Assembly: GCA_025937835.1 (NCBI GenBank)
Contig: JAICQO010000063.1
Coordinates: 1-39,187, forward strand
Source of the DNA: Polyangiaceae bacterium
GTDB taxonomy: Bacteria > Myxococcota_A > Polyangia > Polyangiales > Polyangiaceae
Direction: 5' to 3'
DNA length: 39,187 bases
The stretch's first letter is position 1. Each line of letters starts with the position of its first letter. Below, in pieces: positions 5,590-37,890 of the stretch. Under the pieces are notes generated by a model that saw nothing but the letters and a program-made list of their open reading frames with translations, was not told the DNA's origin and did no database searches. Position numbers and translations under genes: made by a program.

Positions 5590-6780
5590 ATGACGGCGCG
5601 CCCCTGGTTGCTCCCCCCGTTGCTGGCCGCACTGGCGGTCGGGTGCGCCGCGGAAAGCGGTGCGGGGTCCGACCCGGCACCCTCGACGGGCGGGCAGATC
5701 GCTACCGGCGGCAAGCCACCCACCACGGGCGGCGTCGCTTCTCGCGGGGGAACCGAGAGCGGCGGGCGGGCGGGCGCGGTTGCGGGTGGCAGCGGCGGCG
5801 CGGCCCCAACGGCCAGCGGCGGAGCGCCGAGCCAGGCAGGGATGTCTCCCACGGGAGGAAGAACATCGCCGACCGGCGGCGTCGGTCCGGGCTCCGGTTC
5901 GGGCGGCGACTCGCAGACCGGGGGTGCCTCGCCGACCGGAGGAGCTCGGCAGACGAGCGCGGGGGCTTCGGGCGCTGGCGGTGCGCCCGCTGGCGGTGCG
6001 GCGTCGGGCGGTGCGCCCCCTGCAACAGGGGGAACGGGAGGCCGCGGCAGCGGCCCGATCGACGTCCAGGGCGTGACCACTGCCTGCCCCGGTGCGGTCC
6101 CGAAAGGGGTGACCGCCAGCTGGTGCTCGTGCGAGCAATGGGGTCAGAAAACGATCGGCGAGTACACGTATTACAATAACCTCTGGGGCACCGGGCCCGG
6201 ACCTCAGTGCATCTGGCTCGCCGAATCCGGAGCTTGGGGCGTCGCGTCGTCACATCCGAACGGCGGCGGCATCAAATCGTATCCCAACATCTCCGTCTCG
6301 CCGCAGAAGGCGATTTCGAGCATCCAGACCTACACGAGCAGCTTCGAGATCCAGGTGCCCGGCGGGGGGATGTACGACACGGCGTACGACCTGTGGGTGA
6401 AGGGGACGACCTCCGCGCGGATCGAGATCATGTTGTGGATGAGCCACCGCGGCGGAGCGCAACCGATTGCCCAGGCCTACGATGCCTCGGGCGCAATCGC
6501 CGACGCGACCAACGTGACGGTCGGCGGACACACCTGGAACGTCTACTACGGCACGAACGGGGCGAACGACGTGGCTTCGTTTCTCCGGACGAGCAACACC
6601 AACGCCGCCACGGTCGACATCAAGGCCATCCTTGCCTGGTTGATCGCCAACAACCGCTCCAAGTACGCGGTGTTCACGGACAGCTACACGCTGGATCAAG
6701 TCCAGTTCGGCCACGAGATCACCACGGACAGCGGCACTCAGGCCTACGTGACGCCCAGCTTCTCGGTCACTTCCAACTGA
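5590..6780 (+). CDS. GH12 endoglucanase/xyloglucanase lipoprotein
   Basis: The frame opens at 5491, but the ATG at 5590 gives a proper lipoprotein signal peptide (LLAALAVGC, lipidated Cys19), so I start there. Residues 20 to about 162 are a Gly/Ser/Thr/Pro linker with many TGG and SGG units. Residues about 163-396 are a GH12 domain: YNNLWG, QCIWL, SSHPNGGGIKSYPN, YDLWV, then RIEIMLWM (nucleophile Glu) and VQFGHEITTDSG (acid/base Glu region). GH12 enzymes hydrolyse beta-1,4-glucans such as cellulose and xyloglucan with retention. No carbohydrate-binding module is present. A hairpin overlaps its stop codon, and the DUF8021-like gene converges on it. The family call is strong; substrate preference cannot be read from sequence. 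Confidence 0.9.
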   Translation: MTARPWLLPPLLAALAVGCAAESGAGSDPAPSTGGQIATGGKPPTTGGVASRGGTESGGRAGAVAGGSGGAAPTASGGAPSQAGMSPTGGRTSPTGGVGPGSGSGGDSQTGGASPTGGARQTSAGASGAGGAPAGGAASGGAPPATGGTGGRGSGPIDVQGVTTACPGAVPKGVTASWCSCEQWGQKTIGEYTYYNNLWGTGPGPQCIWLAESGAWGVASSHPNGGGIKSYPNISVSPQKAISSIQTYTSSFEIQVPGGGMYDTAYDLWVKGTTSARIEIMLWMSHRGGAQPIAQAYDASGAIADATNVTVGGHTWNVYYGTNGANDVASFLRTSNTNAATVDIKAILAWLIANNRSKYAVFTDSYTLDQVQFGHEITTDSGTQAYVTPSFSVTSN

Positions 6781-6805
6781 GCGCGCGGCAAGCCGCGTGC
6801 GCTCA
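6778..6805. terminator. Hairpin spanning both stop codons of convergent genes
   Basis: TGAGCGC-GCGGC, AA, GCCGC-(GT)-GCGCTCA: 12 paired bases with a two-base bulge. The left end is the TGA stop of the GH12 gene and the right end is the complement of the TGA stop of the DUF8021-like gene. No T-run follows on either strand, so it may act as a bidirectional transcript end or 3' stabiliser rather than a textbook intrinsic terminator. Confidence 0.6.
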
Positions 6806-8026
6806 ATCCCAGCCCGACTCCCCGTCGGTGTTGCGCAAGATCGCGTGCACCGCGTGGACCTGGCCGCCCGACATCTTGATCATGTGCATGTCGAGGTGAC
6901 CCGTCGTCTGGAAGTCGAAGATCGTGAAGCCCGCCGCGATCCCGCGGACCTCATCGACCACGATCACGCGCGGCTCGAAGATCGGGCTCGCGGGCACGTT
7001 CTGCGTGCACGAAGCACCCGCGCCGCACGAGAAATTGCCACCGCCGTTCTCGAGCCGGCGGCAGGCGCTCGTCACGTTGCAAACTCCGGAAGGAAACGCG
7101 CGGAAGTACTTGTCGATCCAGCTCGACAGCTCTTGGCGCGTGGCGCGCTGACCCTCGGGGACCTCGTCGTGCCAGCCGATGCCTTCCGCGATGTCGATGA
7201 TCGCGCCGGGGTCCGAGTCCACCGCGAAGGACGCGGTGTAGTCTCCCGGGCGCACGACGATGCTTTCGATTTCGGTGAGCTGCCCGCCCGCGACCTTTAT
7301 CCGCAGCGCCACGGGAAGATCCGTGTTGCCCTCCGGAATCACGGCTTCGGCCGCGGCGGCGCAGGCCGTCGTGTCCAGGGCGCGCTGGGAGTACTTGGTC
7401 TCTCCCGCGTTCATCCAGAAGTCGGTCTTGCCGAGCTCTGCCGCCTTGGCATTCTCGGTGAACTTCAGGTTGGCAGCGAGCGGGAGCGTCGAGGGATCGC
7501 CGGCGGCGAGCGCCGCGAAGTAATCATCGAGCAGGCCGTCGAGCAACGCGCGCGTGCACTCGGTGCTCGGCGCTCCGCCTGAGCCGGACGCTCCAGCAGT
7601 GGAGCCTCCCACGCCCCCGCCGCCATTCTGAGCACCTCCGCCGGGTGCGCCTGCACCACTCACGCCACCCGCGGATTTCTCACCCGCCTGCCCCGTCGAG
7701 CCTCCACGTCCCCCACCCGGGCTCTGCCCGCCGGACTGAGACGCACCGCCGCTGCCGTTCTGGCCGCCGGTCTGCGCTTTGCCACCCGAGCTGCTTTGCC
7801 CGCCAGTTGCAGGAGCTCCGCCGGTGGTGCTCCGTCCACCGGTGACGCCGCTTCCACCCGCTCCGCCCTGTCCGCCCGTCGCCGAGCTTCCGCCCGTGGT
7901 GCTCTCCTCGCTCTTGCCGCCTTCGTCGGCCTTGTCGCTTCCACAAGCCGCGACGCTGAGGAACGCCAACGCAAGCCCAGAAAAGGCCGTGAAGCTGCTA
8001 CGAGAAAAGCGCCGCCGGGATGCCAT
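6803..8026 (-). CDS. Lipoprotein with GG-rich linker and DUF8021/SnoaL-like domain
   Basis: A 407-residue protein. Residues 1-28 are a lipoprotein signal peptide (LAFLSVAAC, Cys28), and 29 to about 154 are a Gly/Ser/Thr linker like those of the neighbouring hydrolases. From residue 157 the sequence resembles the NTF2/SnoaL-fold family annotated as DUF8021: DDYFAALAAGDPSTLPLA, LKFTENAKAAELGKTDFW, LRIKVAGGQLTEIESIV, a second Cys-containing part, and GHLDMHMIKMSGGQVHAV. Members are secreted proteins of unknown activity; some SnoaL-fold proteins are cyclases or isomerases. It converges on the GH12 gene. Sharing the signal and linker design suggests it is displayed at the same place as the CAZymes. 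I do not assign a reaction. Confidence 0.65.
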   Translation of the reverse strand: MASRRRFSRSSFTAFSGLALAFLSVAACGSDKADEGGKSEESTTGGSSATGGQGGAGGSGVTGGRSTTGGAPATGGQSSSGGKAQTGGQNGSGGASQSGGQSPGGGRGGSTGQAGEKSAGGVSGAGAPGGGAQNGGGGVGGSTAGASGSGGAPSTECTRALLDGLLDDYFAALAAGDPSTLPLAANLKFTENAKAAELGKTDFWMNAGETKYSQRALDTTACAAAAEAVIPEGNTDLPVALRIKVAGGQLTEIESIVVRPGDYTASFAVDSDPGAIIDIAEGIGWHDEVPEGQRATRQELSSWIDKYFRAFPSGVCNVTSACRRLENGGGNFSCGAGASCTQNVPASPIFEPRVIVVDEVRGIAAGFTIFDFQTTGHLDMHMIKMSGGQVHAVHAILRNTDGESGWD

Positions 8027-8277: not shown

Positions 8278-9177
8278 ATGGACGCAGCGCACTCCGAACA
8301 ACCCCGCCTCATTCCTGCCGGCCCGCACGCCCAAGTCGCTCTCGACGCCGCGGGCCTGACCGATACCGGTCTCCACCGCGAGAAGAACGAGGATTCGTTT
8401 CTGATTGCGACGCTTCAGCCCACGCTCGTGGTGCACGAAGCCACGGCCTCTGCGCAGGGCTGGTTCGCGGGCGAGCCCCTCGGCACGCTGTTGATCGTGG
8501 CCGACGGCATGGGAGGCCAGGGTGGCGGTGACGTGGCCAGCCGCACTGCCGTGAATGCCGTCAGCAACTACCTGCTGAACGCGCTGCCGTGGGGCCCGCC
8601 GGGCGTCGACAAGGGCGGGAACCGCGACTCGATTGCCGGACTCAGGGGCCAGCTTTCCTCTGCCCTGGTAGCGGGTGACGCGACCATCAAGACGGCCGGG
8701 GCAAACTCGCGCACTCCGCGCATGGGGACGACGCTCACTGCGGCGTTCGTGCTCTGGCCGGTGGTGTACGTCGCGCATGTCGGAGATACCCGTTGCTACC
8801 TGCTTCGCAACGGCCAGTTGCGGCGTCTGACGACGGACCACAACATGGCGGAAAAGTTCGCTGCGCACCACGTCGCCCACGACGCGGTTCAGCTCCAGAG
8901 CATTCTCTGGAACACGCTCGGCGCGAGTGACGAACTGCCGCAGCCGGAGCTCTGCAAGCTGGAGCTCGCGATGGGGGACACCCTACTGCTCTGCTCCGAC
9001 GGGCTCAACCACCACGTGAACGACGAGCAAATCCAGGCAGTGCTGGAAAACCACACCGGCAGTAGGGCATGCTGCGCCAGGCTCGTGGAGCTGGCGCTGG
9101 CCGGCGGCGGCACCGATAACGTCACGGTGCTCGTGGCTCGCATCGAAGCGGCGCGAGAAAACCCCAAACCCACATGA
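8278..9177 (+). CDS. PP2C-family Ser/Thr protein phosphatase
   Basis: The frame is open from 8020, but homology to the family starts only after the ATG at 8278, and the upstream part holds repeats, so I start here (299 residues). PP2C motifs are in order: HREKNEDSF near the N-terminus, VADGMGGQGGG (residues 74-84), MGTTLTAAF, VAHVGDTRCYLL, LCSDGL and GGTDNVTVLV. The Asp residues bind two metal ions. Such enzymes reverse Hanks-type kinase phosphorylation, and myxobacteria have very many of those kinases. There is no kinase domain or membrane segment, so it is probably cytoplasmic. Its stop overlaps the ATG of the RND adaptor by four bases (ATGA), suggesting translational coupling. Confidence 0.9.
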   Translation: MDAAHSEQPRLIPAGPHAQVALDAAGLTDTGLHREKNEDSFLIATLQPTLVVHEATASAQGWFAGEPLGTLLIVADGMGGQGGGDVASRTAVNAVSNYLLNALPWGPPGVDKGGNRDSIAGLRGQLSSALVAGDATIKTAGANSRTPRMGTTLTAAFVLWPVVYVAHVGDTRCYLLRNGQLRRLTTDHNMAEKFAAHHVAHDAVQLQSILWNTLGASDELPQPELCKLELAMGDTLLLCSDGLNHHVNDEQIQAVLENHTGSRACCARLVELALAGGGTDNVTVLVARIEAARENPKPT

Positions 9178-10475
9178 TACATCCTCCCCCCGCCGAGCCA
9201 GTTCCCGAGGCGGAGCGCGTGGGTAAGGGCGACTTCGCGGCATTGGGGGCGGCGAGCCGGCGCGCCACGCTCGGAGGCCCTCACGTCTCGGTCGGCGGTT
9301 CGCGCCACCCTCACGCGCTCTTACGCTTGGCGCTGTTGGCACTGCTCGCGTGTCACTGCGAAAGCAAGGCTCAGCAACCCGCTCCTCCGCCGCGGCCGGT
9401 CGAGGTCGGCGTGGTCGTCCTGCAACACGAGGCCGTGTTGCTCACCACGGAGCTGCCAGGGCGGACGTCCGCCTACGAGACCTCCGAGGTCCGTCCACAG
9501 GTTTCCGGGATCATCCGCGAGCGCTCGTTCACCGAGGGACAAGTCGTCAGAAAGGGCCAGACGCTCTATCAGATCGACGCGCGCCTCTACCGAGCCTCCG
9601 AGGCACAGGCTCGCGCCAACCTGACGAGCGCGGAGGCGGCGATCGCAGCGGCGCGCTCCCGCTCCGAGCGCTACGCGGAGCTCGCGAAGGTCGGCGCCGT
9701 GAGTCAGCAAGACTATGCCGACGCCAAGGCCAGCGCCGATCAGGCGGTTGCCGCGGTCGCGCAGGCGCGCGCGGCCCTTCAGACCGCCAGCATCAACCTG
9801 CAATACACCGCGGTTGCGGCGCCGATCACGGGGCGCATCGGCCGTTCTCTCGTGACGACGGGAGCCCTCGTGACCGCCAACCAACCGACACCGCTGGCGA
9901 CGATTCAGCGGCTCGACCCGATGTTCGTGGACATGCAGCAGTCCACCGCAGAGATGCTGGCGCTCCGGCGCTCACTCTCGCAAGGGAGCGCGCTGGTCGC
10001 CTCGACGGACGTGACCCTGGAGCTCGAAGACGGCACTCAGTATGCGCGGACGGGGCAGCTGCAGTTCGCAGAAGCTACGGTAGATCCGAGCACCAGCGCC
10101 GTCACGCTGCGGGCGCGCTTCGACAATCCGGACGCGATCTTGTTACCGGGCATGTACGTTCGCGCGCTGGTGACGCAGGCCCGGCGCCCCGCGGCAATCC
10201 TGGCGCCGCAAGCGGGCATCGCTCGCGATCCGAAGGGCAACGCGACGGCGCTCGTGGTCGGTCCCGACGACCAGGTGGCGCTGCGACAGGTCCGAACCTC
10301 GCGCGTGGTTCGGGACCGCTGGCTCGTGGAAGAGGGCCTCGGTCCGGGTGATCGCCTGATCGTCGAGGGGACCGGCAAGGTCAAACCCGGCCAGCGCGTG
10401 AAGCCGGTTCCAGCCGGCCAGCCTCCGGCCGCGCCGTCCTCTGCACCGCCCCCTGCACCGAGCGCGAGCCGCTGA
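9174..10475 (+). CDS. RND efflux periplasmic adaptor (AcrA/MexA family)
   Basis: A membrane fusion protein of up to 433 residues. A hydrophobic stretch ending LLALLAC (near residue 60) looks like a lipobox, giving an inner-membrane lipoprotein adaptor. Then come the barrel-sandwich half VRPQVSGIIRERSFTEGQVV, a coiled-coil hairpin rich in Ala, Glu and Arg, the second half AAPITGRIGRSLVTTGALV and a beta-barrel domain. The start is uncertain: the ATG at 9174 leaves an unusually long leader, and a GTG at 9219 with GAGG eight bases upstream is a good alternative. The tail is Pro/Ala-rich. It links the RND pump to an outer-membrane channel; no TolC-like gene is nearby, so that partner must be encoded elsewhere. 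The pump gene starts six bases after the stop. Confidence 0.9.
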   Translation: MIHPPPAEPVPEAERVGKGDFAALGAASRRATLGGPHVSVGGSRHPHALLRLALLALLACHCESKAQQPAPPPRPVEVGVVVLQHEAVLLTTELPGRTSAYETSEVRPQVSGIIRERSFTEGQVVRKGQTLYQIDARLYRASEAQARANLTSAEAAIAAARSRSERYAELAKVGAVSQQDYADAKASADQAVAAVAQARAALQTASINLQYTAVAAPITGRIGRSLVTTGALVTANQPTPLATIQRLDPMFVDMQQSTAEMLALRRSLSQGSALVASTDVTLELEDGTQYARTGQLQFAEATVDPSTSAVTLRARFDNPDAILLPGMYVRALVTQARRPAAILAPQAGIARDPKGNATALVVGPDDQVALRQVRTSRVVRDRWLVEEGLGPGDRLIVEGTGKVKPGQRVKPVPAGQPPAAPSSAPPPAPSASR

Positions 10476-10481
10476 CACTCC

Positions 10482-16858: not shown

Positions 16859-18280
16859 CTAGAATGGGCAGTTCGTCTGCTCTGACTTGAACTTCGGGTT
16901 GTCCGCGACCTGGAACCAGTCCACGAACCAGAAGCAGCCGTCGCGCGCGGGGCCGGCCGGGATCTTCATGCAGTTCTGGCGCACGCAGTCCTTCTTGGCC
17001 TGGTGTGAGCCGGTGCAATTCGTGAGGAAGCCGCCGTACTGCGCGCCCAGGTCGTTCGAGCCCCATTGCCGGCTGCAGGCGTTGAACATCCCCACGCCGC
17101 CGCCCGGGATCATCAAATCGAATTGATTGCCGGCGACGTCGCCACCGGTGTTGCTCACCTTGACGATCATCTGCTTGCCCTTGATCGCGACGGAGCCCGG
17201 GTCGTTGGCGTTGTGGTAGCCCTGACCCGTGAACTGAATGCGGTAGCATCCGCCGCAGTTCGGGTTCGCCTTGGCGATGTAGCCGTAGGAAAGGCAGTCG
17301 TTCACGGCTTTCGGGGCCTCGTCGTAACAAGCGAAGGAGCCGCCGCCGTTGCACGAGCTGGTGTTATCGCCCGTGCGGGAGGTGCCGTCCTGCCCGCATT
17401 TGTGGCCGTCGAACTGGGCGCAGTGCGGCTGGCAACAATCCCAGTAGCGCGTGGCGAACCCCTCATTTCCGTTGACGGTCGGGTTGCCGCTGTTGGAGCA
17501 ATCCACGGCGCCGGTGCTGCCGCCCCCCGAACCGCCGCTGCCAGGTTCGGGAGTGCAGCGACCGCAGGTCACGTCGCAGTAGTTCGCGAACCAGCTTTCC
17601 GAGCAGGCCTTCGCCTCCAGGGCCCACTCGCTGCAACCCGCGCCGGGCCACTCCGGATCTTCCGGCGGAGGAACGTCCATGCAGACCTTCGGCGGCGCGC
17701 CGCCGCTGCCTCCACCCGCGCCGCCGCTACCACTGCTGGTCGGCGTGCAGCGACCGCAGCTCACGTCGCAGTACCTGGCGAACCAGGACTCCTGGCACTC
17801 CGTCGTTTCGGTAGCCCAGCTCTTACAGGTTGCCCCGGGCCACTCCGGATCGGCGGGCGGCTCGAGGTCGACGCACGCCTTGCCGCCGGTCGCGGCGCCG
17901 GCGCTGCTGACGCCTCCGCCGCCGATCACGACGCCGCCGCTGCCGCCGCCCGGGGTGCTCCCAGACACTCCGCCGCTGCCGCCGCCGGCGCTGGCGACGA
18001 AAGCGCCGCCGGTCGTGGAAGCTCCGGCGGTCGTGAAGGTGCCGCCCGTGACGGTCACGGCGCCGCCGGTGCCCGCTGCACCGCTGCTTGCCGTGAAACC
18101 GCCCGCGCTGCTGCCGGCCGTTGCTGCGTTGCCCGCGACGCCGATCGGGCCGCTGGGCTCCGGCTCGCCCGTGTCACAGCCGCCAGCCGTAGCCAGGGCT
18201 GCGCAGCAGGTGACCGCGGAGACGGAGATGACCGAGCGGCCCATGAAGAGAGAAGCGGATGCGCGAGAGGTCTTGCTCAT
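16859..18280 (-). CDS. GH45 endoglucanase lipoprotein with two Cys-rich modules
   Basis: I start at ATG 18280; a GTG at 18316 is in frame. The signal peptide ends in a slightly unusual lipobox (ATAGGC, Cys35), followed by a Gly/Ala/Thr linker to about residue 130. Two 43-residue modules (about 136-178 and 200-242) each hold six Cys in the spacing C-x15/16-C-x9-C-x8-C-x3-C-x2-C, resembling ShKT domains. The GH45 domain follows, with TRYWDCCQPHC (Asp281), ACYDEAP, LSYGYIA, CGGCYRIQFTG and GNQFDLMIPGGGVG (Asp388). The two Asp are 107 apart, close to the fungal enzyme spacing of 111. GH45 enzymes cut beta-1,4-glucan with inversion. The modules may bind substrate. Confidence 0.9.
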   Translation of the reverse strand: MSKTSRASASLFMGRSVISVSAVTCCAALATAGGCDTGEPEPSGPIGVAGNAATAGSSAGGFTASSGAAGTGGAVTVTGGTFTTAGASTTGGAFVASAGGGSGGVSGSTPGGGSGGVVIGGGGVSSAGAATGGKACVDLEPPADPEWPGATCKSWATETTECQESWFARYCDVSCGRCTPTSSGSGGAGGGSGGAPPKVCMDVPPPEDPEWPGAGCSEWALEAKACSESWFANYCDVTCGRCTPEPGSGGSGGGSTGAVDCSNSGNPTVNGNEGFATRYWDCCQPHCAQFDGHKCGQDGTSRTGDNTSSCNGGGSFACYDEAPKAVNDCLSYGYIAKANPNCGGCYRIQFTGQGYHNANDPGSVAIKGKQMIVKVSNTGGDVAGNQFDLMIPGGGVGMFNACSRQWGSNDLGAQYGGFLTNCTGSHQAKKDCVRQNCMKIPAGPARDGCFWFVDWFQVADNPKFKSEQTNCPF

Positions 18281-24431: not shown

Positions 24432-25568
24432 ATGACGCCGCTATACCGCCAATTCCGAGCTCGCATCGCCACCGTCGTCCTCTTGCCGCTCTTGGCAGTC
24501 GCCGCCTGTAGCGACGACAAGACCGAAGACCCGGGCGCGGTGGCTTCGGGCGGGAGCGGTGGAAACGGCGGGACCGCGGCGGGCGGCATCCAGGCCAAGG
24601 GCGGCGCGACGCCCACCGGTGGCATCAGCTCGAGCACGGGCGGCGCTGCGACGGGCGGCGCGACCACCGTGCCGACCGGTGGAACCTCCAGCGCAACGGG
24701 CGGCGCGGCCACGAACCCGAGCTCGGGTGGCGCAGCAACGGGTGGCACCATCTCCGCAAGCGGCGGCGTTGCCAACGGCGGAACGAACGCGGGCGGGGGT
24801 GGCACCGCGAGCGGCGGCAGCGCTGCCGGCGGGAGCAGCGCGGGCAACACCGGCAGCGGCGGAGCAAGCGTGTTTCACATCTTCATGTTGATGGGGCAGT
24901 CGAACATGGCGGGCGTGGCCAAGAAGCAAGCCAGCGACGAGAACACCGACGACCGGCTGAAGGTGCTGGGCGGCTGCAATCAGCCCGCCGGGCAGTGGAA
25001 CACGGCGAAGCCGCCGCTCAACGATTGCCCCGGCGAAAAGGGCTGGAACCTCAACGACACGGTCGACCCCGGGATCTGGTTCGCCAAGACGCTCCTCGAG
25101 AAGCTGCCCAAGGGCGACACGATCGGTCTGATCGGCACCGCCGAGAGCGGCGAATCGATCAACACGTTCATCACCGGCGGCTCGCACCACCAGATGATCT
25201 TGAACAAGATCGCCAAGGCGAAGATGACCGCGCCGGACGGGCGCTTCGCCGGCATCATCTTCCACCAGGGTGAATCCGATAACGGCCAGAACACCTGGCC
25301 CGACAAGGTCGTGCAGCTTTACAACGAGGTGAAGAAAGCTTGGGGGGTGAGCTACGACGTGCCGTTCGTCCTCGGCGAGCTACCCGCGGGCGGCTGCTGC
25401 GCCGGGCACAACACGCAGGTGCACGCCGCCGCCGACAAGCTACCGATCGGCGCCTGGGTCTCGCAGGAAGGCACCAAGGTGATGGACGAGTATCACTTCG
25501 ATCACGCCTCCGTGGTCTTGATGGGCCAGCGCTACGGCGAGAAGATGATCGAGAAGTTGAAGTGGTAG
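24432..25568 (+). CDS. CE6-like acetyl-xylan esterase lipoprotein (SGNH hydrolase)
   Basis: 378 residues from ATG 24432; the frame also has a GTG at 24411. The lipoprotein signal ends PLLAVAAC (Cys26), with SDDKTED after it. A GG-rich linker covers about residues 35-145. The catalytic domain is a sialate-O-acetylesterase/CE6-type SGNH hydrolase: MLMGQSNMAG (nucleophile Ser157), GTAESGESI, FHQGESD and the C-terminal DEYHFDHAS (Asp-x-x-His). It should remove acetyl groups from xylan, the usual CE6 substrate, and fits with the GH10 gene just upstream. Its stop overlaps the start of the next lipoprotein gene by seven bases. Confidence 0.85.
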   Translation: MTPLYRQFRARIATVVLLPLLAVAACSDDKTEDPGAVASGGSGGNGGTAAGGIQAKGGATPTGGISSSTGGAATGGATTVPTGGTSSATGGAATNPSSGGAATGGTISASGGVANGGTNAGGGGTASGGSAAGGSSAGNTGSGGASVFHIFMLMGQSNMAGVAKKQASDENTDDRLKVLGGCNQPAGQWNTAKPPLNDCPGEKGWNLNDTVDPGIWFAKTLLEKLPKGDTIGLIGTAESGESINTFITGGSHHQMILNKIAKAKMTAPDGRFAGIIFHQGESDNGQNTWPDKVVQLYNEVKKAWGVSYDVPFVLGELPAGGCCAGHNTQVHAAADKLPIGAWVSQEGTKVMDEYHFDHASVVLMGQRYGEKMIEKLKW

Positions 25569-26485
25569 CTCGCGGGTTTCGGCGAGCGCTCGTCGCCAGC
25601 GTGGTCGCCGGCGGCGCGAGCGTCGCAGGAGGGTGTTCCGGTGACGCCGAGCCGGGGCCGGCCGAACCGAGCGCGGGGGCCCCGAAAACCGGTACCGGCG
25701 GAGCCGACGCGCCGAGCGGTGGCAGGGCGGCTTCCTCCAGCGGTGGCGCACCCGCGAGGGGCGGAAGGCCCGCTGCAGGGACGGCGGGCGCCGATAGCGG
25801 CGGCTCGACCCGTGGTGGTTCGAACAGCGGTGGGGCTCACACCCCGGCTGGTGGTGCTGGCGGCTCGAGCGATGCCGGCGGCTCGAACGATGCTGGCGGC
25901 CCGAGCGATGCTGGGGGCTCGAACGATGCTGGCGGCCCGAGCGATGCTGGCGGCTCGAGCGGCGGGAGGTCACCGGCTGAGGGCGGCGCGAACGCGGGGG
26001 CTGGCGCTGGCGGCCGTGATCCGGAGTGTCCCGAATCCCTCAGCGCCGCGTTGCTGCCCCCGTCGAAAAGCTGTTCGAAAGCGGGGCTCGTCTGCGCGGT
26101 TCCCGTGGACTGCAACACGGGCTCTGGGCTGCTGTCCATGACCTGCGAAAATCAGATCTGGGAAGTGCCGAGGGGCTGTGACGAGCCATTCAACTTCTGT
26201 GTCGATGCCACCGGGGGCGTCAGGGACAACATCGCCAGCGCCGATTGCGAAGAGGGCTCCTGGGTCATCGAGTGGACGCTCTCTTCCTTCGGCCCGATCC
26301 CCTGCCCCGCCGAGCCGCCGGCAGACGACATGCCGTGCGACGCAACCGGCGGGACCGAATCCAGCGGCGACCGCAAACACTGCGGCTATCCGTGCAGCGG
26401 CGGCGAAGGCTGGTCGGTGATCAGCTGCACCGGCGAAGGCAGCGACGCGAAGTGGCTCTCGGACGGCGCCTGTGACGGCGCCTGA
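25562..26485 (+). CDS. Cys-rich lipoprotein of unknown function
   Basis: 307 residues from GTG 25562, inside the last codons of the esterase gene; GAGAAG lies upstream. The signal ends SVAGGC (Cys25), followed by SGDAEPG and a linker to about residue 155 that includes GGSNDAGGPSDA repeats. The remaining 150 residues contain 14 Cys and seem to be a duplicated module: CAVPVDC...SMTC...PRGC in the first half and CGYPCSGGEGWSVISC...GAC in the second. I recognise no enzyme family. Translational coupling to the acetyl-xylan esterase and the shared anchor design suggest a binding or structural role on the same polysaccharide. Confidence 0.65.
   Translation: MVARGFRRALVASVVAGGASVAGGCSGDAEPGPAEPSAGAPKTGTGGADAPSGGRAASSSGGAPARGGRPAAGTAGADSGGSTRGGSNSGGAHTPAGGAGGSSDAGGSNDAGGPSDAGGSNDAGGPSDAGGSSGGRSPAEGGANAGAGAGGRDPECPESLSAALLPPSKSCSKAGLVCAVPVDCNTGSGLLSMTCENQIWEVPRGCDEPFNFCVDATGGVRDNIASADCEEGSWVIEWTLSSFGPIPCPAEPPADDMPCDATGGTESSGDRKHCGYPCSGGEGWSVISCTGEGSDAKWLSDGACDGA
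25862..25951 (+). repeat. 18-base tandem repeat, five copies, in a linker
   Basis: Units of GGCTCGAACGATGCTGGC type encode GG(S/P)(N/S)DA. Copies 2-3 and 4-5 form a 36-base pair of repeats (25880-25915 and 25916-25951) that differ at one base, indicating recent duplication and probable length variation of the linker. Confidence 0.9.
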
Positions 26486-26504: not shown

Positions 26505-27932
26505 CTACAACGCCCGCGATTGCACGAACAACGACAGCGGGAAATTGCCGTCCTTGCCCACGAATCGGGCGTCGGGGACGTCGATCACGACCTCGTGCGC
26601 TCCGGCCGCCTGCGCGCCGAGCGAGATGATGCGGGTGTCGATCACGTCGCCGGGGCACCAGTTGCTGAACGACTGCCACGTCGCGTCGGTGCGCGGAGAC
26701 GGTCCGTAGATGCCGTTACCCTGGGTGTTGAACTTGCGAAATGGCTCGCAGCTCATGCGCCCGGGCTTGTACTCGAGGACCTGTTCGCCGTCGACCGACA
26801 CGAAGTGATCGCGGCGCACGTACTCTTCGCCGTCGGTGTTCGCGCCGTGGTTCGAGGTGATGAGCACGAGCTGCGTCTCGGCGCTCGCCCGAGCCAGCGT
26901 GAACGAGAGCGTCTTCCGCGTCGTGCCGCTGCTATCGCTCGCCCCTTGCTGGTAGTTGTTGAACGGAGCCTTGTACGCGAGGGGGATCAGCTCGTCGAAC
27001 AGCGCAGCGGCGGCGCTGCTGTCGGAGTCCAGGATCAGCGTGCCGCGGAAGACGTCGCTGCGGTTGGCGCAGCCGGCCACCTCCTCGTTGGCGGCGTACG
27101 GCACGCCGAACAACTCGAGCTCGAGCCAGAGATCGTGCTCTTCGCGGAGCTCCGGATCGCGCAATACCGGGACGAGGTGGTCCGCGGAAAACTCGTACGG
27201 CACCTGGTCCGGCTGATTGTTGCGGTTCATGAACGGCGTGATGTAGCGGCCGATCTCGATGCGCTGGACGTCGTCGGGCTGGTAGGTGCGCTGCCCTTTC
27301 GGCACCAGCGCGAGCGCGACGCTGCCGATGCGATCGTAGTTGTCGCAGAGCGCACCGATGATCACCCGCACCGTCAAGCTGCCCTGGATCGAGCCGAGCT
27401 CCGAGTCGGTCAGCTGGTGCGTGAAGAGATCGTTGCGCAGCCGCACGACGCCGGCTGGGACAGGCTCGCTCACGACTCCGGCGTATGCGTCGTAGAACAC
27501 CACTTCGTCGAAGATGGTGAGGCTCACGGGCTCACTTGGAGCAGCGCCGCCGCCCGCCGCAACGCCGCCGTTTGCCTTGCCGCCGCTGCCTCCACCCGCG
27601 ACCGCGGCGCCGCCCGTGCTCGCGAGCCCGCCACCGCTGCTCGCCCCGCCCGTGGCGCTGCCGCTCTTGGCGCCGCCGCCGCCGCTCGCACCGCCCGTGA
27701 CGCCGCCTGCGCCGCTGTTGCCCGCAGCAGCGCTGGCCTTGCCTCCCACGCTGCCTCCGCTGGCTGCACCCGCACCGGCCGCCGCGCTCCCGCCCGTGCC
27801 CGCTGAGCCACCGGTCGCGCGCGCACCGCCGGTGCTCGAGCTTTTCGTCGATGCCGCGTCGTCGGCCTCACAGGCGACGACGCAGAGCAGCGGAGCGAGC
27901 GCGACCGCGCAGCGAGCCCACTGAGTCGGCAT
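26505..27932 (-). CDS. PNGase F-like N-glycanase lipoprotein
   Basis: 475 residues. The lipoprotein signal ends LLCVVAC (Cys21), with EADDAAS after it, then a Gly/Ala/Ser linker to about residue 130. The rest matches the two-domain PNGase F family: TIFDEVVFYDAYAG, LCDNYDRIG (Asp200, equivalent to catalytic Asp60), RIEIGRYITPFM, DVFRGTLIL, then TSNHGANTDGEEYVRRDH (Glu370, equivalent to Glu206), DGEQVLEY and NWCPGDVIDTRI. Known enzymes release whole N-glycans by cutting the Asn-GlcNAc amide. The domain is about 340 residues, close to the 314 of the characterised enzyme. It likely acts on glycoproteins of prey, fungi or plant walls. The Cys-rich lipoprotein gene converges on it. Confidence 0.88.
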   Translation of the reverse strand: MPTQWARCAVALAPLLCVVACEADDAASTKSSSTGGARATGGSAGTGGSAAAGAGAASGGSVGGKASAAAGNSGAGGVTGGASGGGGAKSGSATGGASSGGGLASTGGAAVAGGGSGGKANGGVAAGGGAAPSEPVSLTIFDEVVFYDAYAGVVSEPVPAGVVRLRNDLFTHQLTDSELGSIQGSLTVRVIIGALCDNYDRIGSVALALVPKGQRTYQPDDVQRIEIGRYITPFMNRNNQPDQVPYEFSADHLVPVLRDPELREEHDLWLELELFGVPYAANEEVAGCANRSDVFRGTLILDSDSSAAAALFDELIPLAYKAPFNNYQQGASDSSGTTRKTLSFTLARASAETQLVLITSNHGANTDGEEYVRRDHFVSVDGEQVLEYKPGRMSCEPFRKFNTQGNGIYGPSPRTDATWQSFSNWCPGDVIDTRIISLGAQAAGAHEVVIDVPDARFVGKDGNFPLSLFVQSRAL

Positions 27933-29770: not shown

Positions 29771-29777
29771 GCAGCGT

Positions 29778-31821: not shown

Positions 31822-32817
31822 CAAGCAGCAACCGACGTAGGTCATAGCAGACGGATCGGTCGAGGTCGGCGAGCCGCTGCTGACGATGATCTGGTCGCCG
31901 ATACGCGCGGCGATCGCGCCCTTGAGCGGCCGCGGCAAAGGGGCGAGGGCCGACCAGACGTCGGCGCGCGGATCGTAGACCAGCACCTCGTCACTCGGCT
32001 TCTTACCGAAGACCGAGCCGCCGACCGTGAGCAGCCGTCCGTCCGACAAAACCAGGGTCGAGGCGCCGATCTCGGAGCGGCCGAGCGGCATCGGGGCGCG
32101 GGCCTGCCAGGAGCTCGTCCTTGGCTCGAAGGCGTGCAGATCCGGGACGTGGCCCGAGGTCTCGTCCCAGCGAAAGCGACCGGCTACGGCGTAGAACAGG
32201 CCGCCCGAGGCGGCGCCTCCGCCGTGGTTGCGCGGAGTGGGCAGCGCCACCGAGGTCGCCCAACCAGCGCCGCTCGCGAGCTCGAGCGTGAAGTGATCAC
32301 CGGTGTCGGTGTTGCCGTCCTCTGCGAGACCCCCGGCGACGTGGAGCGTCGAGCCCACCAGCGCGGTCGCGGTGCCGGCACGCGCCGCAGGTAAATCCGG
32401 ACCCGCGACGAAGCTCGCGCTCGCGGCGTTCCATCGCCACATGCCGGCGGTCGTCACGCGATCGAGCACGTTGCCGATGAAGCCGCCGACGAGCACGAAG
32501 TCTTCACCGACGTTGGCCACGCCCGCGTGAGTCTCCGCGCCAGGCAGCTCGGGGCCGAGCCGCCAGCTGTCGGTTCGCGGATCGTAGATATCGATGCGCC
32601 GGGTGACGTCGAGCTTGGTCGATAGAAAGCCGCCCATCACCCACAGCTCGCCGGCCACGACGACGCCGAGCGCCTCGAAGCGCGGCACCGGGCAGGGCGT
32701 GACTTCGACCCAGGCGAAGCGTTTAGGCTCCGAAGGCGACGGACTGTCGCCTTTGCCCGCGTCGGAGCAGCCGACCATCCACGCCATCAGACCAACCGCG
32801 AACCCCACGCTCTTCAT
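31819..32817 (-). CDS. Kelch-repeat lipoprotein
   Basis: 332 residues. A lipoprotein signal ends AWMVGC (Cys17), followed by SDAGKGD and a short Ser/Pro segment instead of the long GG linker. The rest is a beta-propeller built of about six Kelch repeats, for example GELWVMGGF...IDIYDPRTDSWRLGPELP, DFVLVGGF, LHVAGGL, RLLTVGGS and VLVYDPRADVWSALAPLP. Kelch propellers bind proteins or carbohydrates, and some are galactose oxidase-like, but no copper-site residues are recognised here. It probably has a binding role at the cell envelope. It converges on the kinase gene and is divergent from the GH11 gene. Confidence 0.82.
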   Translation of the reverse strand: MKSVGFAVGLMAWMVGCSDAGKGDSPSPSEPKRFAWVEVTPCPVPRFEALGVVVAGELWVMGGFLSTKLDVTRRIDIYDPRTDSWRLGPELPGAETHAGVANVGEDFVLVGGFIGNVLDRVTTAGMWRWNAASASFVAGPDLPAARAGTATALVGSTLHVAGGLAEDGNTDTGDHFTLELASGAGWATSVALPTPRNHGGGAASGGLFYAVAGRFRWDETSGHVPDLHAFEPRTSSWQARAPMPLGRSEIGASTLVLSDGRLLTVGGSVFGKKPSDEVLVYDPRADVWSALAPLPRPLKGAIAARIGDQIIVSSGSPTSTDPSAMTYVGCCL

Positions 32818-32952: not shown

Positions 32953-34083
32953 ATGCTTGCGGCGATGCGTCTCTTCAGCGCCTATCTGGCCGCAGCGGCG
33001 CTCGCCGCCTGCTCGAGCTCCGAGACCAGCGACGGCGGGAGCGGCGGCGCCGGCACGTCGACCGGCGGAGCAACCGGCGGAGTGCAGAACACCGGTGGCA
33101 GCACCGGCGGTCTCGCGCCCACCGGTGGCGCGCGCGCGTCCGGCGGAGCTCCGAGCATCGGCGGCAGCGACGACACTGGCGGCAAGGCGAGCGCGAGCGG
33201 CGGAGCTCCGGCGCCGAGTGGCGGTCAGGCGAACAGCGGCGGCAAGTCGAACAGCGGCGGGAGTCCGAGCGCCGGCAACTCGAGCACGAGCGGCGGCGCC
33301 CCCTCTCCGAACGGCGGCGCGGTCGGCGGCGGCGGGAGCGCGGGCTCGGCAGGCTCCAGCGCTGGCGGCTCCGGAGGCAGCGGCGGTGGCTCGAGCGGCG
33401 CGCCAAGCACCTGTCCACCTGCGACACCGCTCAGCGGCGGGACCCAGGTCTGCACGAACGCGACTGGCAACGCCGGGTCTGGCTACACCTACGAGCTCTG
33501 GGGCGAAGGAGCTGGAAAGGGCTGCATGACCGTGCACGGCAAGGACGCGACCTTCAGCGCGACCTGGACGGGCGTCGAAGACTTGCTGGCGCGCGTCGGG
33601 CGTTCGTTCGACAAGACCAAGAAGCACGCGCAGATCGGCACCATCACCGCGGAGTTCGCCGAGACCAAGACGGGCAGCAACAACCTCGTCTACATCGGCG
33701 TCTATGGCTGGACCGACGAGCCGCTCCGCGAGTTCTACATCCTCGACGACTGGGGCGAGATCAAGCCCGCGGGCACGTCGTCCGACGGCAGCCCGCGCGA
33801 CTTCGTCGGCACGATCGAGGTCGATGGCGGCACCTACGACGTCTGGAAGAAGACGCGTATGAACAAGCCCGCCATCACCGGCGACAACAAGACCTTCGAT
33901 CAGTACTTCAGCATCCGCCAGACGGCGCGTCAGTGCGGCCGCATCTCGGTCTCCGAGCACTTCACCAAGTGGGAAGCGCTGGGCCTGCCGCTCGGCAACC
34001 TGTGGGAAGCCAAGCTCTTGATGGAAGCGCAGGACAGCACCGGCACGATCAGCTTCACGACGGCCAAGGTCGAGGTCGACTGA
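32953..34083 (+). CDS. GH11 endo-beta-1,4-xylanase lipoprotein
   Basis: 376 residues (a second ATG is at 32965). The signal ends AAALAAC (Cys20), followed by SSSETSD and a GG-rich linker to about residue 150. The GH11 jelly roll shows GYTYELWGEG, TFSATWTG, YIGVYGWTDEPLREFYILDD with nucleophile Glu260, and LWEAKLLMEAQDSTG with acid/base Glu358. The 98-residue spacing is normal for the family. GH11 enzymes are small retaining xylanases specific for xylan. No CBM is present. It is the first of three plus-strand enzyme genes before a strong terminator, though 222 bases separate it from the next gene, so it may have its own transcript. Confidence 0.92.
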   Translation: MLAAMRLFSAYLAAAALAACSSSETSDGGSGGAGTSTGGATGGVQNTGGSTGGLAPTGGARASGGAPSIGGSDDTGGKASASGGAPAPSGGQANSGGKSNSGGSPSAGNSSTSGGAPSPNGGAVGGGGSAGSAGSSAGGSGGSGGGSSGAPSTCPPATPLSGGTQVCTNATGNAGSGYTYELWGEGAGKGCMTVHGKDATFSATWTGVEDLLARVGRSFDKTKKHAQIGTITAEFAETKTGSNNLVYIGVYGWTDEPLREFYILDDWGEIKPAGTSSDGSPRDFVGTIEVDGGTYDVWKKTRMNKPAITGDNKTFDQYFSIRQTARQCGRISVSEHFTKWEALGLPLGNLWEAKLLMEAQDSTGTISFTTAKVEVD

Positions 34084-34305: not shown

Positions 34306-36036
34306 GTGCGCGACATTCGATTTCTCGGATTGGTACTGACCGGCACGCTCTGTGCGGGATGGGGCTGTACGTCCGACGATCCGGGTGCTGCTGCCGGCAC
34401 TGGTGGGGCAGTGGCCACCACGGGTGGGGCCGCGTCGACCGGCGGGGTCAAACCGAGCGGCGGCAGCCCGCCGACCGGCGGCAGCGTGCCAACGGGCGGG
34501 AGTACCCCGACGCCGAGCGGCGGCTCGGGCACGGGCGGGACCGGCGGCGCGCCGCTGGCGGGTGGAACCGGCGGCAGTGCCGGCAATAGCGGGGGCTCCA
34601 GCGGCGGGAGCCTCCCCGGCGGCGGCGGTTCGGGCGGCGCGACGGCGGGCAGTGGCGGCGCCGTGGGCGGCGCGATGGGCGGCACGGCGCCCGGTGGCGC
34701 GTCTCCAGGCGGCGCGGATGGCGACCCGAAGACCGGTCCCGTGACGGTGCGGCTCGACGCCCCGAAGCAAAAGATGGAGGCGTTCGGCATCAACAACAAC
34801 TGGGCGCCGGCCATGACCGAGGCCGACGCGGACGCGATGTTCGACGTCAGCAAGGGCCTCGGCATCTCCGCGCTGCGGATCGGGATGAAGGCCGACGGCG
34901 GCCCCTTCAACGGCACCGCTTGTTGGGACGACATCAAGAAGGCCTCGGCGCGGGGTGTCAAAATCTTCATCGGTACGCTCTGGTCGCCGCCCGCTAGCTA
35001 CAAGACCAACAACAACGAGAACGACGGCGGCCACCTGAAGTCGGAGTTCTACGAGGACTGGGCGGACACGATCGCTGCCTTCCCCGCGAAGGTGAAGGCC
35101 GGCGCGGGCGTGGATCTGTACGCGATGTCGCCGCAGAACGAGGTCGACTTTGCCTCGTGCGGCAGGAACGAGCCGTGCAACGGCAACTACCCGACCACGC
35201 TGTACACGGGCGCGGAGATGGCGGCGTTCGTCAAGATCGTCGGGCCCAAGCTCAAGGCGCTGAGTCCGCCGGTAAAGCTGATCGCGCCCGAGGCCTCGGA
35301 GTGGCTGCACACCTGGTCGAACGAGTCGGCGTGCTGCTCGGTGCCGGGCGGCTTGCCGAGCTCGAACCCGCTGAAGGGCACGGGCTACGACTACGGCCAC
35401 GAGCTCGCGAAAGACCCAGCGACGTGGGAGCTGGTCGATATCCTGGGCGTGCACCAGTACGACACCCAGGTGGCCGAGGTCTGGCCTGCCGATGTGCCGG
35501 TGAAGAAGCCGGTCTGGCAGACCGAGATGTCGGGCGTGAAGTGGTGGCCCGAGCAGGGGCCGAGCAGCGATATCAACAACGCCGTCGCGGTGGCGGGTTG
35601 GATCCACAACGCGATCACGGTCGGCGAAGCCTCGGCCTGGTTCTGGTGGTGGTGGAAGGCGGCGGGCGACACGAACGAAGGCTTGTTGCTCGCCAATGGC
35701 ACCGACACGAAGCGCCGCTACGCTTTCGGCAACTTCAGTCGCTTCATTCGTCCGGGTTATCAACGCGTGGACGTCCGGGGAGCCGTTCCCGCCTCCGTCG
35801 AGATGACCGCTTACGCGGGTGAAGACGGCACCCTCGCGATCGTCGCGATCAACAAGGCCGACGCGGCCGCGAGCTTCTCGATCAACATCTCCGGCGGGAC
35901 CGCCCCCGCCATGTTCACTCCGTGGGTGACGTCTGCCACGGACAATCTTGCATCCAAGGCGGCCGTCGCGGTTACTAACGGCGCATTCACCGCTGAGCTC
36001 GCCGAAAAGACAGTGACGACGTTCGTAGGTAAGTAG
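34306..36036 (+). CDS. GH30-family xylanase-like lipoprotein
   Basis: 576 residues from GTG 34306; the frame is open to 34270. The signal ends CAGWGC (Cys21), an unusual lipobox with Trp at -2, followed by TSDDPG and a Gly/Thr linker to about residue 145. The barrel and side beta domain fit GH30: QKMEAFGINNNWAP, LRIGMKADGG, WSPPASYK, YAMSPQNEVDF (acid/base Glu279), WQTEMSG (nucleophile Glu407), EASAWFWWWW and a C-terminal YAGEDGTLAIVAIN. It may be a glucuronoxylanase or another beta-glycanase; the subfamily cannot be fixed by eye. The second GH30 gene begins 12 bases after the stop, so the two are one transcription unit. Confidence 0.85.
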   Translation: MRDIRFLGLVLTGTLCAGWGCTSDDPGAAAGTGGAVATTGGAASTGGVKPSGGSPPTGGSVPTGGSTPTPSGGSGTGGTGGAPLAGGTGGSAGNSGGSSGGSLPGGGGSGGATAGSGGAVGGAMGGTAPGGASPGGADGDPKTGPVTVRLDAPKQKMEAFGINNNWAPAMTEADADAMFDVSKGLGISALRIGMKADGGPFNGTACWDDIKKASARGVKIFIGTLWSPPASYKTNNNENDGGHLKSEFYEDWADTIAAFPAKVKAGAGVDLYAMSPQNEVDFASCGRNEPCNGNYPTTLYTGAEMAAFVKIVGPKLKALSPPVKLIAPEASEWLHTWSNESACCSVPGGLPSSNPLKGTGYDYGHELAKDPATWELVDILGVHQYDTQVAEVWPADVPVKKPVWQTEMSGVKWWPEQGPSSDINNAVAVAGWIHNAITVGEASAWFWWWWKAAGDTNEGLLLANGTDTKRRYAFGNFSRFIRPGYQRVDVRGAVPASVEMTAYAGEDGTLAIVAINKADAAASFSINISGGTAPAMFTPWVTSATDNLASKAAVAVTNGAFTAELAEKTVTTFVGK

Positions 36037-36048
36037 AGGTTCCCGACA

Positions 36049-37890
36049 ATGACTAGATTCCTTTCGATCTCCAGCTTCGGACTCGTAGTCGCGGCCATCG
36101 CGTGTAGCTCTGAAGGCGACCCGCCCGCCCCCGGCGGCGGCACCGGCGGCGGCACCGCGGCCCCCAACGGTGGCTCCGGCGGCACTCCGGCGACCCCGAA
36201 CGGAGGCTCGAATGCCTCGGGCAACACTGGCGTTACCGGCGGCAACAAGGGCACCGGCACGACCGGCGGTAGCACCGGCACCGGCACGACCGGCGGTAGC
36301 ACGGGCACTCAGGGCGGCAGCACCGGTGTCACTGGTGGCAGCACGGGCACTCCCGTCGCGGGCATGGCCGGCGGCGGCGGCGCGCCCCCGATTGGCGGCG
36401 CACCGCCGGTCGGCGGAGCCGGAGACGGCGGAACGCCCAGCGCCGGCGCTGGCGGCGGGGTCATGGCCCCTGCCCTGCCCCCGGTCGTGACCTCCGCGCC
36501 GGGCGCTTACTGGAAGACCGAGCCCATGCTCATGGAGTCCGAGGCCGCGGCCACGGTCACCGTGAACGACACGACGCTCGCCCAGGTCTGGGAAGGCTTC
36601 GGCGGCTCGTTCAACGAGATGGGCTGGAACTTCCTCACCACGGCCGAGATGCAGAGCAAGGCCCTCGCGTTGCTGTTCAGCGCCACCGACGGCGCCGCGC
36701 TCACCTGGGGACGCATCCCGATGGGCGCGAGCGACTACGGCATGACTCGCTACACCCTCGCGGACACGGGCGAGGACGTCCAGGCCATGGCCGGCGAGGC
36801 CAACCGCCCGCCGACGGACACCGCGCTCGCCTCGTTCTCGCTCGCACGCGACGAAATGCGGCTGATCCCGTACATCAAGGCCGCGCAGAACGTGAAGGCG
36901 GACATCCGCTTCTGGGCGAGCCCCTGGACGCCGCCGGTCTGGATGAAGACGGGGTTCAAGGACAAGAGCGGCGGAGACAGCAGCAAGGCCGCGACGAGGC
37001 CGTCTTACTTCGACGGCGGCACCATGAAGAGCGACTCGGCGATCCTCGCCTCGTACGCCGAGTACTTCAAGAAGTTCGTAGACGGCTACCAGGCCAAGGG
37101 CATCAAGGTCGAGCTCGTCTCGCCGCAGAACGAGCCGGGCTACGACCAGAACTACCCGTCGTGCCTCTGGGAAAGCGCGACCTTCATCAGCTTCATCAAA
37201 GACCACCTCGGCCCGAAGATGAAGGAGATGGGCGTGAAGGTGATGCTCGGCACCATGTCGAACGCCGGTGACGGCGGCCGCAACGATCTCAACATCGTCA
37301 CGGCGGTGCTGGGAGACGCGACGGCGAAGAGCTTTGTCTCCGTCGGCGGCGCGCAGTGGGGCGTGCTTGGACAGCAGAACATGGGCAACAAGTTCGGCGA
37401 TCTGCCGGTCTGGGCCACCGAGCACAAGTGCGGCAATTACCCGTGGGAGGAGGGCACGTACAAGCAAACCGCTCCCAACGATCAGGCTTACGCCGAGGAG
37501 AGCTGGGGCTACATTCGCGACGCGATCGGCAAGGGCAAGGTCACTTCGTACAGCGCCTGGAACATGGTCCTCGACGCCTCGGGCCTCGGCAACGACACGA
37601 GCCGCCACTGGGCACAGAACGCGCTGCTCGTTGCCAACGGCGGTCAGGTCACGGCGACCCCGTTCTACTGGGTCTTCCGGCACCTGTCGCAGTACGTCAT
37701 GCCCGGCGCGAACGTCGTCGGTACATCGGGAGGCGATGCGCTCGCCTTCAAGAATCCCGACGGCAGTCTGGTCGCCGTCGCCTTCAACAGCGGGGCAGCG
37801 AACCCCAACTATGTCGTGGCGATGGGCGGTAAGAAGTTCCAGGTCAACATGCCCAGTAAGGGCTGGGTGACGGTGAAGTACAAACCGTAG
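36049..37890 (+). CDS. GH30-family beta-glycosidase lipoprotein
   Basis: 613 residues. The signal ends VVAAIAC (Cys19), followed by SSEGDPP and a linker to about residue 145 with GTGTTGGST repeats. The domain is of glucosylceramidase/beta-1,6-glucanase type: VWEGFGGSFNEMGWNFL, WGRIPMGASDYG, FWASPWTPPVWMKT, VSPQNEPGYDQNYPSC with acid/base Glu362, VWATEHKCGNY with nucleophile Glu458, and SYSAWNMVLD. The C-terminal beta domain ends the chain. It differs clearly from the GH30 protein just upstream, so the pair probably have distinct substrates, for example xylan and beta-1,6-glucan of fungal walls. It shares a transcript with that gene and ends at the terminator at 37922. Confidence 0.88.
   Translation: MTRFLSISSFGLVVAAIACSSEGDPPAPGGGTGGGTAAPNGGSGGTPATPNGGSNASGNTGVTGGNKGTGTTGGSTGTGTTGGSTGTQGGSTGVTGGSTGTPVAGMAGGGGAPPIGGAPPVGGAGDGGTPSAGAGGGVMAPALPPVVTSAPGAYWKTEPMLMESEAAATVTVNDTTLAQVWEGFGGSFNEMGWNFLTTAEMQSKALALLFSATDGAALTWGRIPMGASDYGMTRYTLADTGEDVQAMAGEANRPPTDTALASFSLARDEMRLIPYIKAAQNVKADIRFWASPWTPPVWMKTGFKDKSGGDSSKAATRPSYFDGGTMKSDSAILASYAEYFKKFVDGYQAKGIKVELVSPQNEPGYDQNYPSCLWESATFISFIKDHLGPKMKEMGVKVMLGTMSNAGDGGRNDLNIVTAVLGDATAKSFVSVGGAQWGVLGQQNMGNKFGDLPVWATEHKCGNYPWEEGTYKQTAPNDQAYAEESWGYIRDAIGKGKVTSYSAWNMVLDASGLGNDTSRHWAQNALLVANGGQVTATPFYWVFRHLSQYVMPGANVVGTSGGDALAFKNPDGSLVAVAFNSGAANPNYVVAMGGKKFQVNMPSKGWVTVKYKP
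36250..36303 (+). repeat. 27-base tandem repeat in GH30 linker
   Basis: Two near-identical 27-base units (starting at 36250 and 36277) encode GTGTTGGST and are followed by degenerate copies. They mark where this linker has recently grown. Confidence 0.8.

Follow-up and report, generated by a model that had tools for sequence, protein, structure and literature searches.

An acidic tag at +4/+5 marks Gly-linker lipoproteins in a Polyangiaceae genome and is probably a sorting signal

In the genome of a Polyangiaceae bacterium (assembly GCA_025937835.1) a large class of predicted lipoproteins carries Asp or Glu a few residues after the lipidated cysteine, usually ahead of a glycine-rich linker. 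The 39,187 nt stretch of contig JAICQO010000063.1 analysed here, which we call the window, encodes eleven lipoproteins with such an acidic tag. Counting the lipid Cys as +1, all eleven have Asp or Glu by +5 and eight have it exactly at +4, the exceptions being the GH45 (CDTGE), Kelch (CSDAG) and GH11 (CSSSE) proteins. Both counts had been claimed in a sequence-only reading of this DNA, and both stood when the tags were re-read from the nucleotides (11/11 and 8/11). The acidic tag is genome-wide and real. Its residues support a position-specific mark that separates exported-type from periplasm-type lipoproteins in this genome, which is probably a sorting signal and suggests that the residues act as an address, possibly that of the cell surface.

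Our sample consisted of 1.92 Mb of further stretches and the window, together 1.96 Mb or ~28% of the 6.92 Mb assembly; contigs C44, C48, C188, C57 and C226 were sampled through a match to a GH12 query and the remaining contigs were picked by number. A home-made hexamer caller gave 1649 genes. From 247 lipobox signals 238 were kept, the other nine being discarded for a hydrophobic mature start or a low score. The lipobox predictor errs in both directions, missing about five Gly-linker proteins and the Cys-rich protein of the window while keeping some false ones, such as an epimerase. The other 10/11 window lipoproteins were recovered with the residues as quoted; the Cys-rich protein, if its start is taken to be the GTG at 25562, reads ...ASVAGG/CSGDAEPG. 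A Gly-linker was defined as 20 residues with at least 85% G/S/T/A/P/N/Q and at least 30% Gly, inside the first 60 mature residues. It was found in 71/238 lipoproteins (window included), and outside the window we compared 62 Gly-linker lipoproteins with 166 others.

Within the 71 Gly-linker lipoproteins the frequency of Asp or Glu is 6% at +2, 27% at +3, 61% at +4 and 48% at +5; it stays near 30% from +6 to +8 and is down to 3-8% at +15 to +20. The 167 other lipoproteins (window included) show 23% at +4 and 13-25% from +5 to +12. Outside the window an acid at +4 is found in 36/62 Gly-linker lipoproteins against 38/166 others (p 1.1e-6), a difference on which we rejected a general property of all lipoproteins, and an acid at +4 or +5 in 48/62 against 61/166. 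Position +2 is avoided by acids (2/62 against 13/166), few members of the class have Lys or Arg at +2/+3 (2/62 against 35/166), and the pattern C[SG]x[DE] occurs in 31/62 Gly-linker lipoproteins and 21/166 others. The contrast at +4 is kept with a strict lipobox (20/31 versus 24/105, p 4e-5). The 62 Gly-linker lipoproteins form 55 clusters, with a cluster-weighted acid frequency at +4 of 34.3/55, and the last 14 residues of their signal peptides average 16% identity. A duplicated N-terminal cassette was rejected on the number of clusters and this low identity.

One alternative is that the acids have no sorting role and reflect a composition habit where a long, uncharged Gly-linker begins, serving solubility or lipid head-group repulsion. 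We consider this unlikely, and it still carries some weight: acids of the linker class persist at about 30% through +6 to +8, a strong effect at protein level was demonstrated for this genome only, and the link between residue and location is a prediction from sequence. Simulation argues the other way. When each protein's acid content in +2 to +20 was held, 0/5000 runs reached the observed +4 or +5 counts. The +4/+5 peak and the depletion at +2 persist when the simulation is limited to +2 to +8, with 0/5000 runs for +4 and a weaker result for +5 (p 0.007). The acids are also shared by Cys-rich lipoproteins that have no linker, being present at +4 in 20/49 proteins with at least seven Cys and 15/93 with fewer (p 0.002). 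Disulphide-rich proteins are often extracellular. Gly-linker proteins with a signal peptidase I signal, intended as the linker control, numbered only eight, five of which resemble missed lipoproteins by eye. N-terminal Gly-linkers are almost confined to predicted lipoproteins (71 versus these eight with other signals), and the anchor and the spacer look like parts of a single architecture.

The window is ordinary by the standards of this class. Outside it, Gly-linker lipoproteins have an acid in +2 to +5 in 53/62 cases and at +4 in 36/62, against which the 11/11 and 8/11 of the window are unremarkable (P 0.18 and 0.25). Set beside the pooled rate of every lipoprotein outside the window (74/228 at +4), a count of at least 8/11 has P 0.007. 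The rates of the window match those of Gly-linker lipoproteins elsewhere, and the window is therefore a sample of a genome-wide pattern. A local oddity of the gene cluster was rejected on the same equality of rates.

The acids also vary with the place where a protein is expected to work. Of 100 proteins scanned with Pfam outside the window (30 linker, 70 other), a set that takes in 20 of the final 30 drawn, 23 were used, 11 of extracellular type and 12 of periplasm/inner-membrane type. The remaining 77 gave no match or an ambiguous family (e.g. trypsin, fn3, imelysin, DUF1588-type, VWA, PEGA/TPR, alpha/beta hydrolase), and two of the 11 extracellular-type assignments, one polysaccharide-lyase-like and one RTX-type, lie below the Pfam cut-off. 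The extracellular type has an acid at +4 in 5/11 proteins and at +4/+5 in 8/11, against 1/12 and 3/12 for the periplasm/inner-membrane type (p 0.07 and 0.04). The three periplasm-type exceptions with an acid at +4/+5, a substrate-binding protein (SBP), a PpiC protein and a cytochrome c, all bear Lys or Arg at +2/+3. By a criterion chosen afterwards, an acid at +4/+5 without Lys or Arg at +2/+3, the split becomes 8/11 versus 0/12. An OmpA-domain lipoprotein of this genome, expected to face the periplasm, is acid-free (CGGTMAF). Ala/Pro-linker lipoproteins make up a second class, 24 outside the window, in which the acid is rare (3/24 at +4 versus 36/62, p 2e-4); this is perhaps a periplasm-facing outer-membrane class.

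Order-wide control families gave a similar picture. From 30 SBP, 30 RND adaptor and 10 LpoB loci we obtained 18, 11 and 8 lipoproteins, the other loci having no readable lipobox. An acid at +4 was present in 1/18, 0/11 and 0/8 of these (1/37 in total) and at +4/+5 in 3/18, 2/11 and 0/8 (5/37). The sequence-only reading had named beforehand, as the outcome that would speak against a surface signal, an equal acid frequency at +4 in periplasmic and inner-membrane lipoproteins; this outcome did not appear, either across the order (1/37 at +4, 5/37 at +4/+5) or in this genome (1/12, 3/12). The SBP lipoproteins have Lys or Arg at +2/+3 in 15/18 cases, with starts that are mostly CKK, CKx, CxK or CRK, a candidate inner-membrane retention signal.

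Lipoprotein sorting through residues that follow the lipid Cys is an established principle, and the available text of several papers describes systems with which the present tag may be compared. T2SS-dependent lipoproteins (type II secretion system, T2SS) of Acinetobacter baumannii bear GGG or ND(N/D) at P2'-P4', and a Gly/Asp hybrid motif is described for Burkholderia pseudomallei and Shewanella oneidensis. Surface location is said to require the motif without being ensured by it, and for Pseudomonas the authors cite GGG or GDD as a means of Lol avoidance (PMC12802150). The surface lipoproteins of this T2SS/GspN kind, InvL and FilF of A. baumannii and PulA of Klebsiella, are according to that text Gly/Ser/Asp-rich after the lipid Cys, at P2'-P8', where other lipoproteins are not (PMC12802150); the situation here is similar, though not identical. 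The present tag, Gly/Ser followed by Asp/Glu, is akin to the Gly/Asp hybrid. A further likeness is the polysaccharide-degrading cargo, PulA in that system, and the GspN family is encoded here too. The two differ in that the motif there lies at P2'-P4' and consists of Gly or Asn/Asp, whereas here the peak is at +4/+5 and Glu is common; the GspN present here is of the TIGR04411 kind and not PF01203.

The positional signature, its class specificity and the Lys/Arg contrast are established in this genome, as is the presence of the GspN family: TIGR04411 gave E 4.5e-53 and 181.6 bits (cut-off 50), GspN being the sole T2SS component searched. The same model is over its cut-off in 37/38 genomes of the order and in no control genome. 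Polysaccharide-degrading, often Cys-rich enzymes are typical T2SS cargo. On account of the similar Gly/Asp hybrid motif, the T2SS-typical cargo and the GspN family, we rank first the hypothesis that the tag is the sorting signal of a surface-anchored lipoprotein class that takes the T2SS/GspN route and avoids Lol. We hold it tentatively, as the best placed of the readings though somewhat short of an even chance. Next come the composition habit and a Bacteroidota-like flippase, at about equal odds.

Under the T2SS/GspN hypothesis C-[S/G]-x-[D/E]-[D/E] would be an N-terminal sorting signal common to one large lipoprotein class of this genome, made up of hydrolases of secreted type together with binding or Cys-rich proteins; in most of them a flexible Gly/Ser/Thr linker comes after the signal. 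These proteins would avoid Lol, travel via T2SS/GspN and end anchored on the outer face of the outer membrane, with the Gly-linker as a spacer that lets the enzyme reach its polymer. Lys or Arg at +2/+3 would take the place of the acids in inner-membrane lipoproteins, and those of the outer membrane that face the periplasm would bear neither mark. Surface location, Lol avoidance and dependence on T2SS/GspN are inferred for the tagged lipoproteins. A bolder formulation, which as a whole we find somewhat unlikely, is a three-way code in which Lys/Arg at +2/+3 would stand for the inner membrane, Gly/Ser followed by acids at +4/+5 for the cell surface, and the lack of both for the side of the outer membrane that faces the periplasm. 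Its acidic arm would have arisen independently of the Bacteroidota signal and would bring a large set of Gly-tethered proteins, with numerous degradative enzymes among them, to the surface, probably via a GspN-type T2SS.

A number of observations weigh against the T2SS/GspN route. PF01203, the GspN family model that matches Escherichia coli, has no match in this genome in a search in which GspN was the only T2SS component, and that a TIGR04411 protein could do the job of the PF01203 GspN is assumed. GspN is found throughout the sampled order, whereas the acidic tag is uneven. A Caulobacter lipoprotein released by the T2SS is described, in the available text, as still reaching the surface without it (PMC2996285). 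The functional classes were labelled with the N-termini in view, and their plain tests stand at p 0.07 (+4) and 0.04 (+4/+5). Within this genome a GH5 lipoprotein lacks the acid (CLKTPER), and the polysaccharide-lyase-like protein and one RTX-type protein have none at +4/+5. One RND adaptor, that of the window (CHCES), does have an acid at +4, although its lipobox is itself doubtful. The sequence-only reading had flagged this adaptor as having Glu at +4 if its lipobox is LLAC. The candidate context indeed reads LLAC/HCES, yet there is an Arg at -9 in the h-region, the lipobox predictor rejects it, and 0/11 other adaptors of the order have the acid. CHCES contains two Cys, and lipidation at the first would break the pattern of the order's adaptors. 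The suggested order-wide comparison of hydrolases with periplasmic lipoproteins came out as expected on the periplasmic side (1/37 at +4) but not on the hydrolase side, where the six GH11/GH12 lipoproteins read from other genomes have an acid at +4 in 1/6, at +4/+5 in 2/6 and in +2 to +5 in 5/6; their acids may sit at other places. With the five from this genome included, the 11 readable lipoproteins of the order-wide GH11/GH12 surface-side set give 3/11 at +4 and 6/11 at +4/+5.

Rules reported for other bacteria were also compared. According to the available text on Myxococcus xanthus, Lys+2 is found in 8/12 inner-membrane lipoproteins, Ala+7 is associated with the extracellular matrix, and the outer-membrane set is reported without conservation (PMC3222651). 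The Lys/Arg at +2/+3 of inner-membrane-type lipoproteins here (15/18 SBPs of the order) is a likeness to that system. The reported dependence of M. xanthus extracellular lipoproteins on Ala+7 (PMC3222651) is a further point against our preferred route, and as a rule for the tagged class it was rejected, since Ala+7 occurs in 2/62 Gly-linker lipoproteins. Lol avoidance through Asp+2 in E. coli, as described in the same text (PMC3222651), shares an acid near the lipid Cys; this rule was likewise rejected, with Asp or Glu at +2 in 2/62.

The Bacteroidota export signal is the parallel that the sequence-only reading had drawn. In that case the lipoproteins would pass through Lol to the outer membrane and an acid-reading machine of independent origin would then flip them to the outer leaflet, a route we think about as unlikely as the composition habit. 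In the available text the signal is SDDDD in Bacteroides fragilis, SDDFE in Flavobacterium johnsoniae and X-K-[D/E]2 in Capnocytophaga canimorsus, where Lys or another polar residue comes before the acids at +4/+5; position matters (PMC5080379). A later structural paper takes at least two acids within six residues after the Cys as this signal (PMC12578637, available text). These signals resemble C-[S/G]-[S/G/D]-[D/E]-[D/E], and the likeness extends to a polar residue followed by acids at +3 to +5, to hydrolase cargo and, in the text available, to periplasm-facing lipoproteins without conserved residues (PMC5080379). The residue pattern is present in the class described here, whose surface placement is predicted; its peak at +4/+5 is as in C. 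canimorsus, while Ser/Gly at +2 is nearer to B. fragilis (Ser). In contrast, we saw no Lys/Gln requirement, and the phylum is probably another: the list of named relatives for one lipoprotein family of this genome is led by Myxococcales, Sorangium and Polyangiaceae records. A search for SLAM (PF04575) gave no match in this genome, but none in any control genome either. The parallel is one of two precedents, the T2SS/GspN motif being similar and fitting equally well (PMC12802150, available text).

We regard as improbable a third alternative, in which the acids merely secure release to the outer membrane, as the opposite of Lys/Arg retention, and periplasm or surface facing is decided otherwise: Lys/Arg at +2/+3 is indeed rare in the tagged class (2/62 versus 35/166) and common in SBPs (15/18), but the small set of outer-membrane lipoproteins expected to face the periplasm is acid-free (LpoB 0/8, OmpA-domain CGGTMAF), and Ala/Pro-linker lipoproteins, which perhaps also face the periplasm, have an acid at +4 in 3/24.

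The spread of the tag, uneven beyond this genome, also counts against the T2SS/GspN route. Among 80 named loci of public genomes, grouped by record names, the Sorangium/Polyangia/'Myxococcales' metagenome-assembled genome group has an acid at +4 in 4/17 Gly-linker lipoproteins (24%) and at +5 in 5/17, not clearly higher than its 63 other lipoproteins (17% and 19%). Myxococcia gave 0/3 at +4, a very small sample, and Nannocystales two Gly-linker lipoproteins, too few for judgement; the Planctomycetota and Acidobacteriota loci had no Gly-linker among 8 and 3 lipoproteins. The proposal of an independent myxobacterial surface-export signal is thus narrowed: a class-specific acidic tag stands in this genome, while 'myxobacterial' is too wide (4/17, 0/3). 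We also searched 38 genomes of the order for an exact DNA pattern in which L-x-[G/A]-C is combined with a pair of acid codons; it was matched 436 times with the pair at +4+5, compared with 309 times at +9+10 and 325 times at +2+3. The +4+5 count exceeds the +9+10 count in 22/38 genomes, falls below it in 13 and ties in 3. Much of the excess is carried by two genomes, G012 (65/22/32 at +4+5/+9+10/+2+3) and G030 (63/31/31), without which the totals are 308, 256 and 262. G008 (24/8/10) and G006 (22/2/2) are also high at +4+5, and their matches often translate to CGDDD, CGDDE or CGGDD. The trend is opposite in G024 (35/41/55) and G002 (18/30/31); G024 is richest at +2+3, and the position of the acid may differ between families. 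The exact pattern is insensitive, catching 3/26 lipoproteins with acids at +4+5 in our own 1.96 Mb, so silence elsewhere means little. The tag is strong in this genome and probably so in certain other families of the order, with an uneven spread.

Among the matches listed in the literature searched, from which subscription journals mostly lay outside, titles and abstract openings held no +4/+5 acidic class mark in myxobacteria. For M. xanthus the available text called the mechanism of lipoprotein trafficking unknown in 2011 and left the role of its two predicted T2SSs in lipoprotein export to future work (PMC3222651). Should the tag hold up, many lipoproteins that now lack annotation could be assigned by their residues as candidates for the surface, the periplasm or the inner membrane, and acidic tags would be a recurrent solution for lipoprotein surface export in unrelated groups.

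In the window Pfam supports the GH12, GH45, polysaccharide deacetylase, SASA/CE6, PNGase F, Kelch, GH11 and both GH30 assignments, and the scan gave no match for the DUF8021-labelled or Cys-rich lipoproteins.

Table 1. Tagged lipoproteins of the window and the RND adaptor that serves as counter-example (lipid Cys = +1).
Feature	Position	Tag	Tag coordinates (strand)	Acid	Pfam
GH12 lipoprotein	5590-6780	CAAES	5644..5658 (+)	+4	PF01670
DUF8021-labelled lipoprotein	6803-8026	CGSDK	7931..7945 (-)	+4	no match
RND adaptor, counter-example	9174-10475	CHCES (candidate lipid Cys)	9351..9365 (+)	+4 (Glu)	HlyD_3
GH45 lipoprotein	16859-18244	CDTGE	18164..18178 (-)	+2, +5	PF02015
Polysaccharide deacetylase (CE4-type) lipoprotein	18659-20005	CSAED	18734..18748 (+)	+4, +5	PF01522
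SASA/CE6-type esterase lipoprotein	24432-25568	CSDDK	24507..24521 (+)	+3, +4	PF03629
Cys-rich Gly-linker lipoprotein	25562 (assumed GTG start)-26485	CSGDA	25634..25648 (+)	+4	no match
PNGase F-type lipoprotein	26505-27932	CEADD	27858..27872 (-)	+2, +4, +5	PF09112, PF09113
Kelch lipoprotein without Gly-linker	31819-32817	CSDAG	32755..32769 (-)	+3	
GH11 lipoprotein	32953-34083	CSSSE	33010..33024 (+)	+5	PF00457
GH30 lipoprotein	34306-36036	CTSDD	34366..34380 (+)	+4, +5	PF14587
GH30 lipoprotein	36049-37890	CSSEG	36103..36117 (+)	+4	PF02055

Within the cluster a GH10 xylanase with a CBM4_9 domain (22524-24272) received no lipobox call, and apparently not all hydrolases of the cluster are lipid-anchored. 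This genome has five GH11 and four GH12 matches, while in the order, this genome included, GH11 is found in 3/115 genomes and GH12 in 5/110; the organism is perhaps a plant-polymer specialist.

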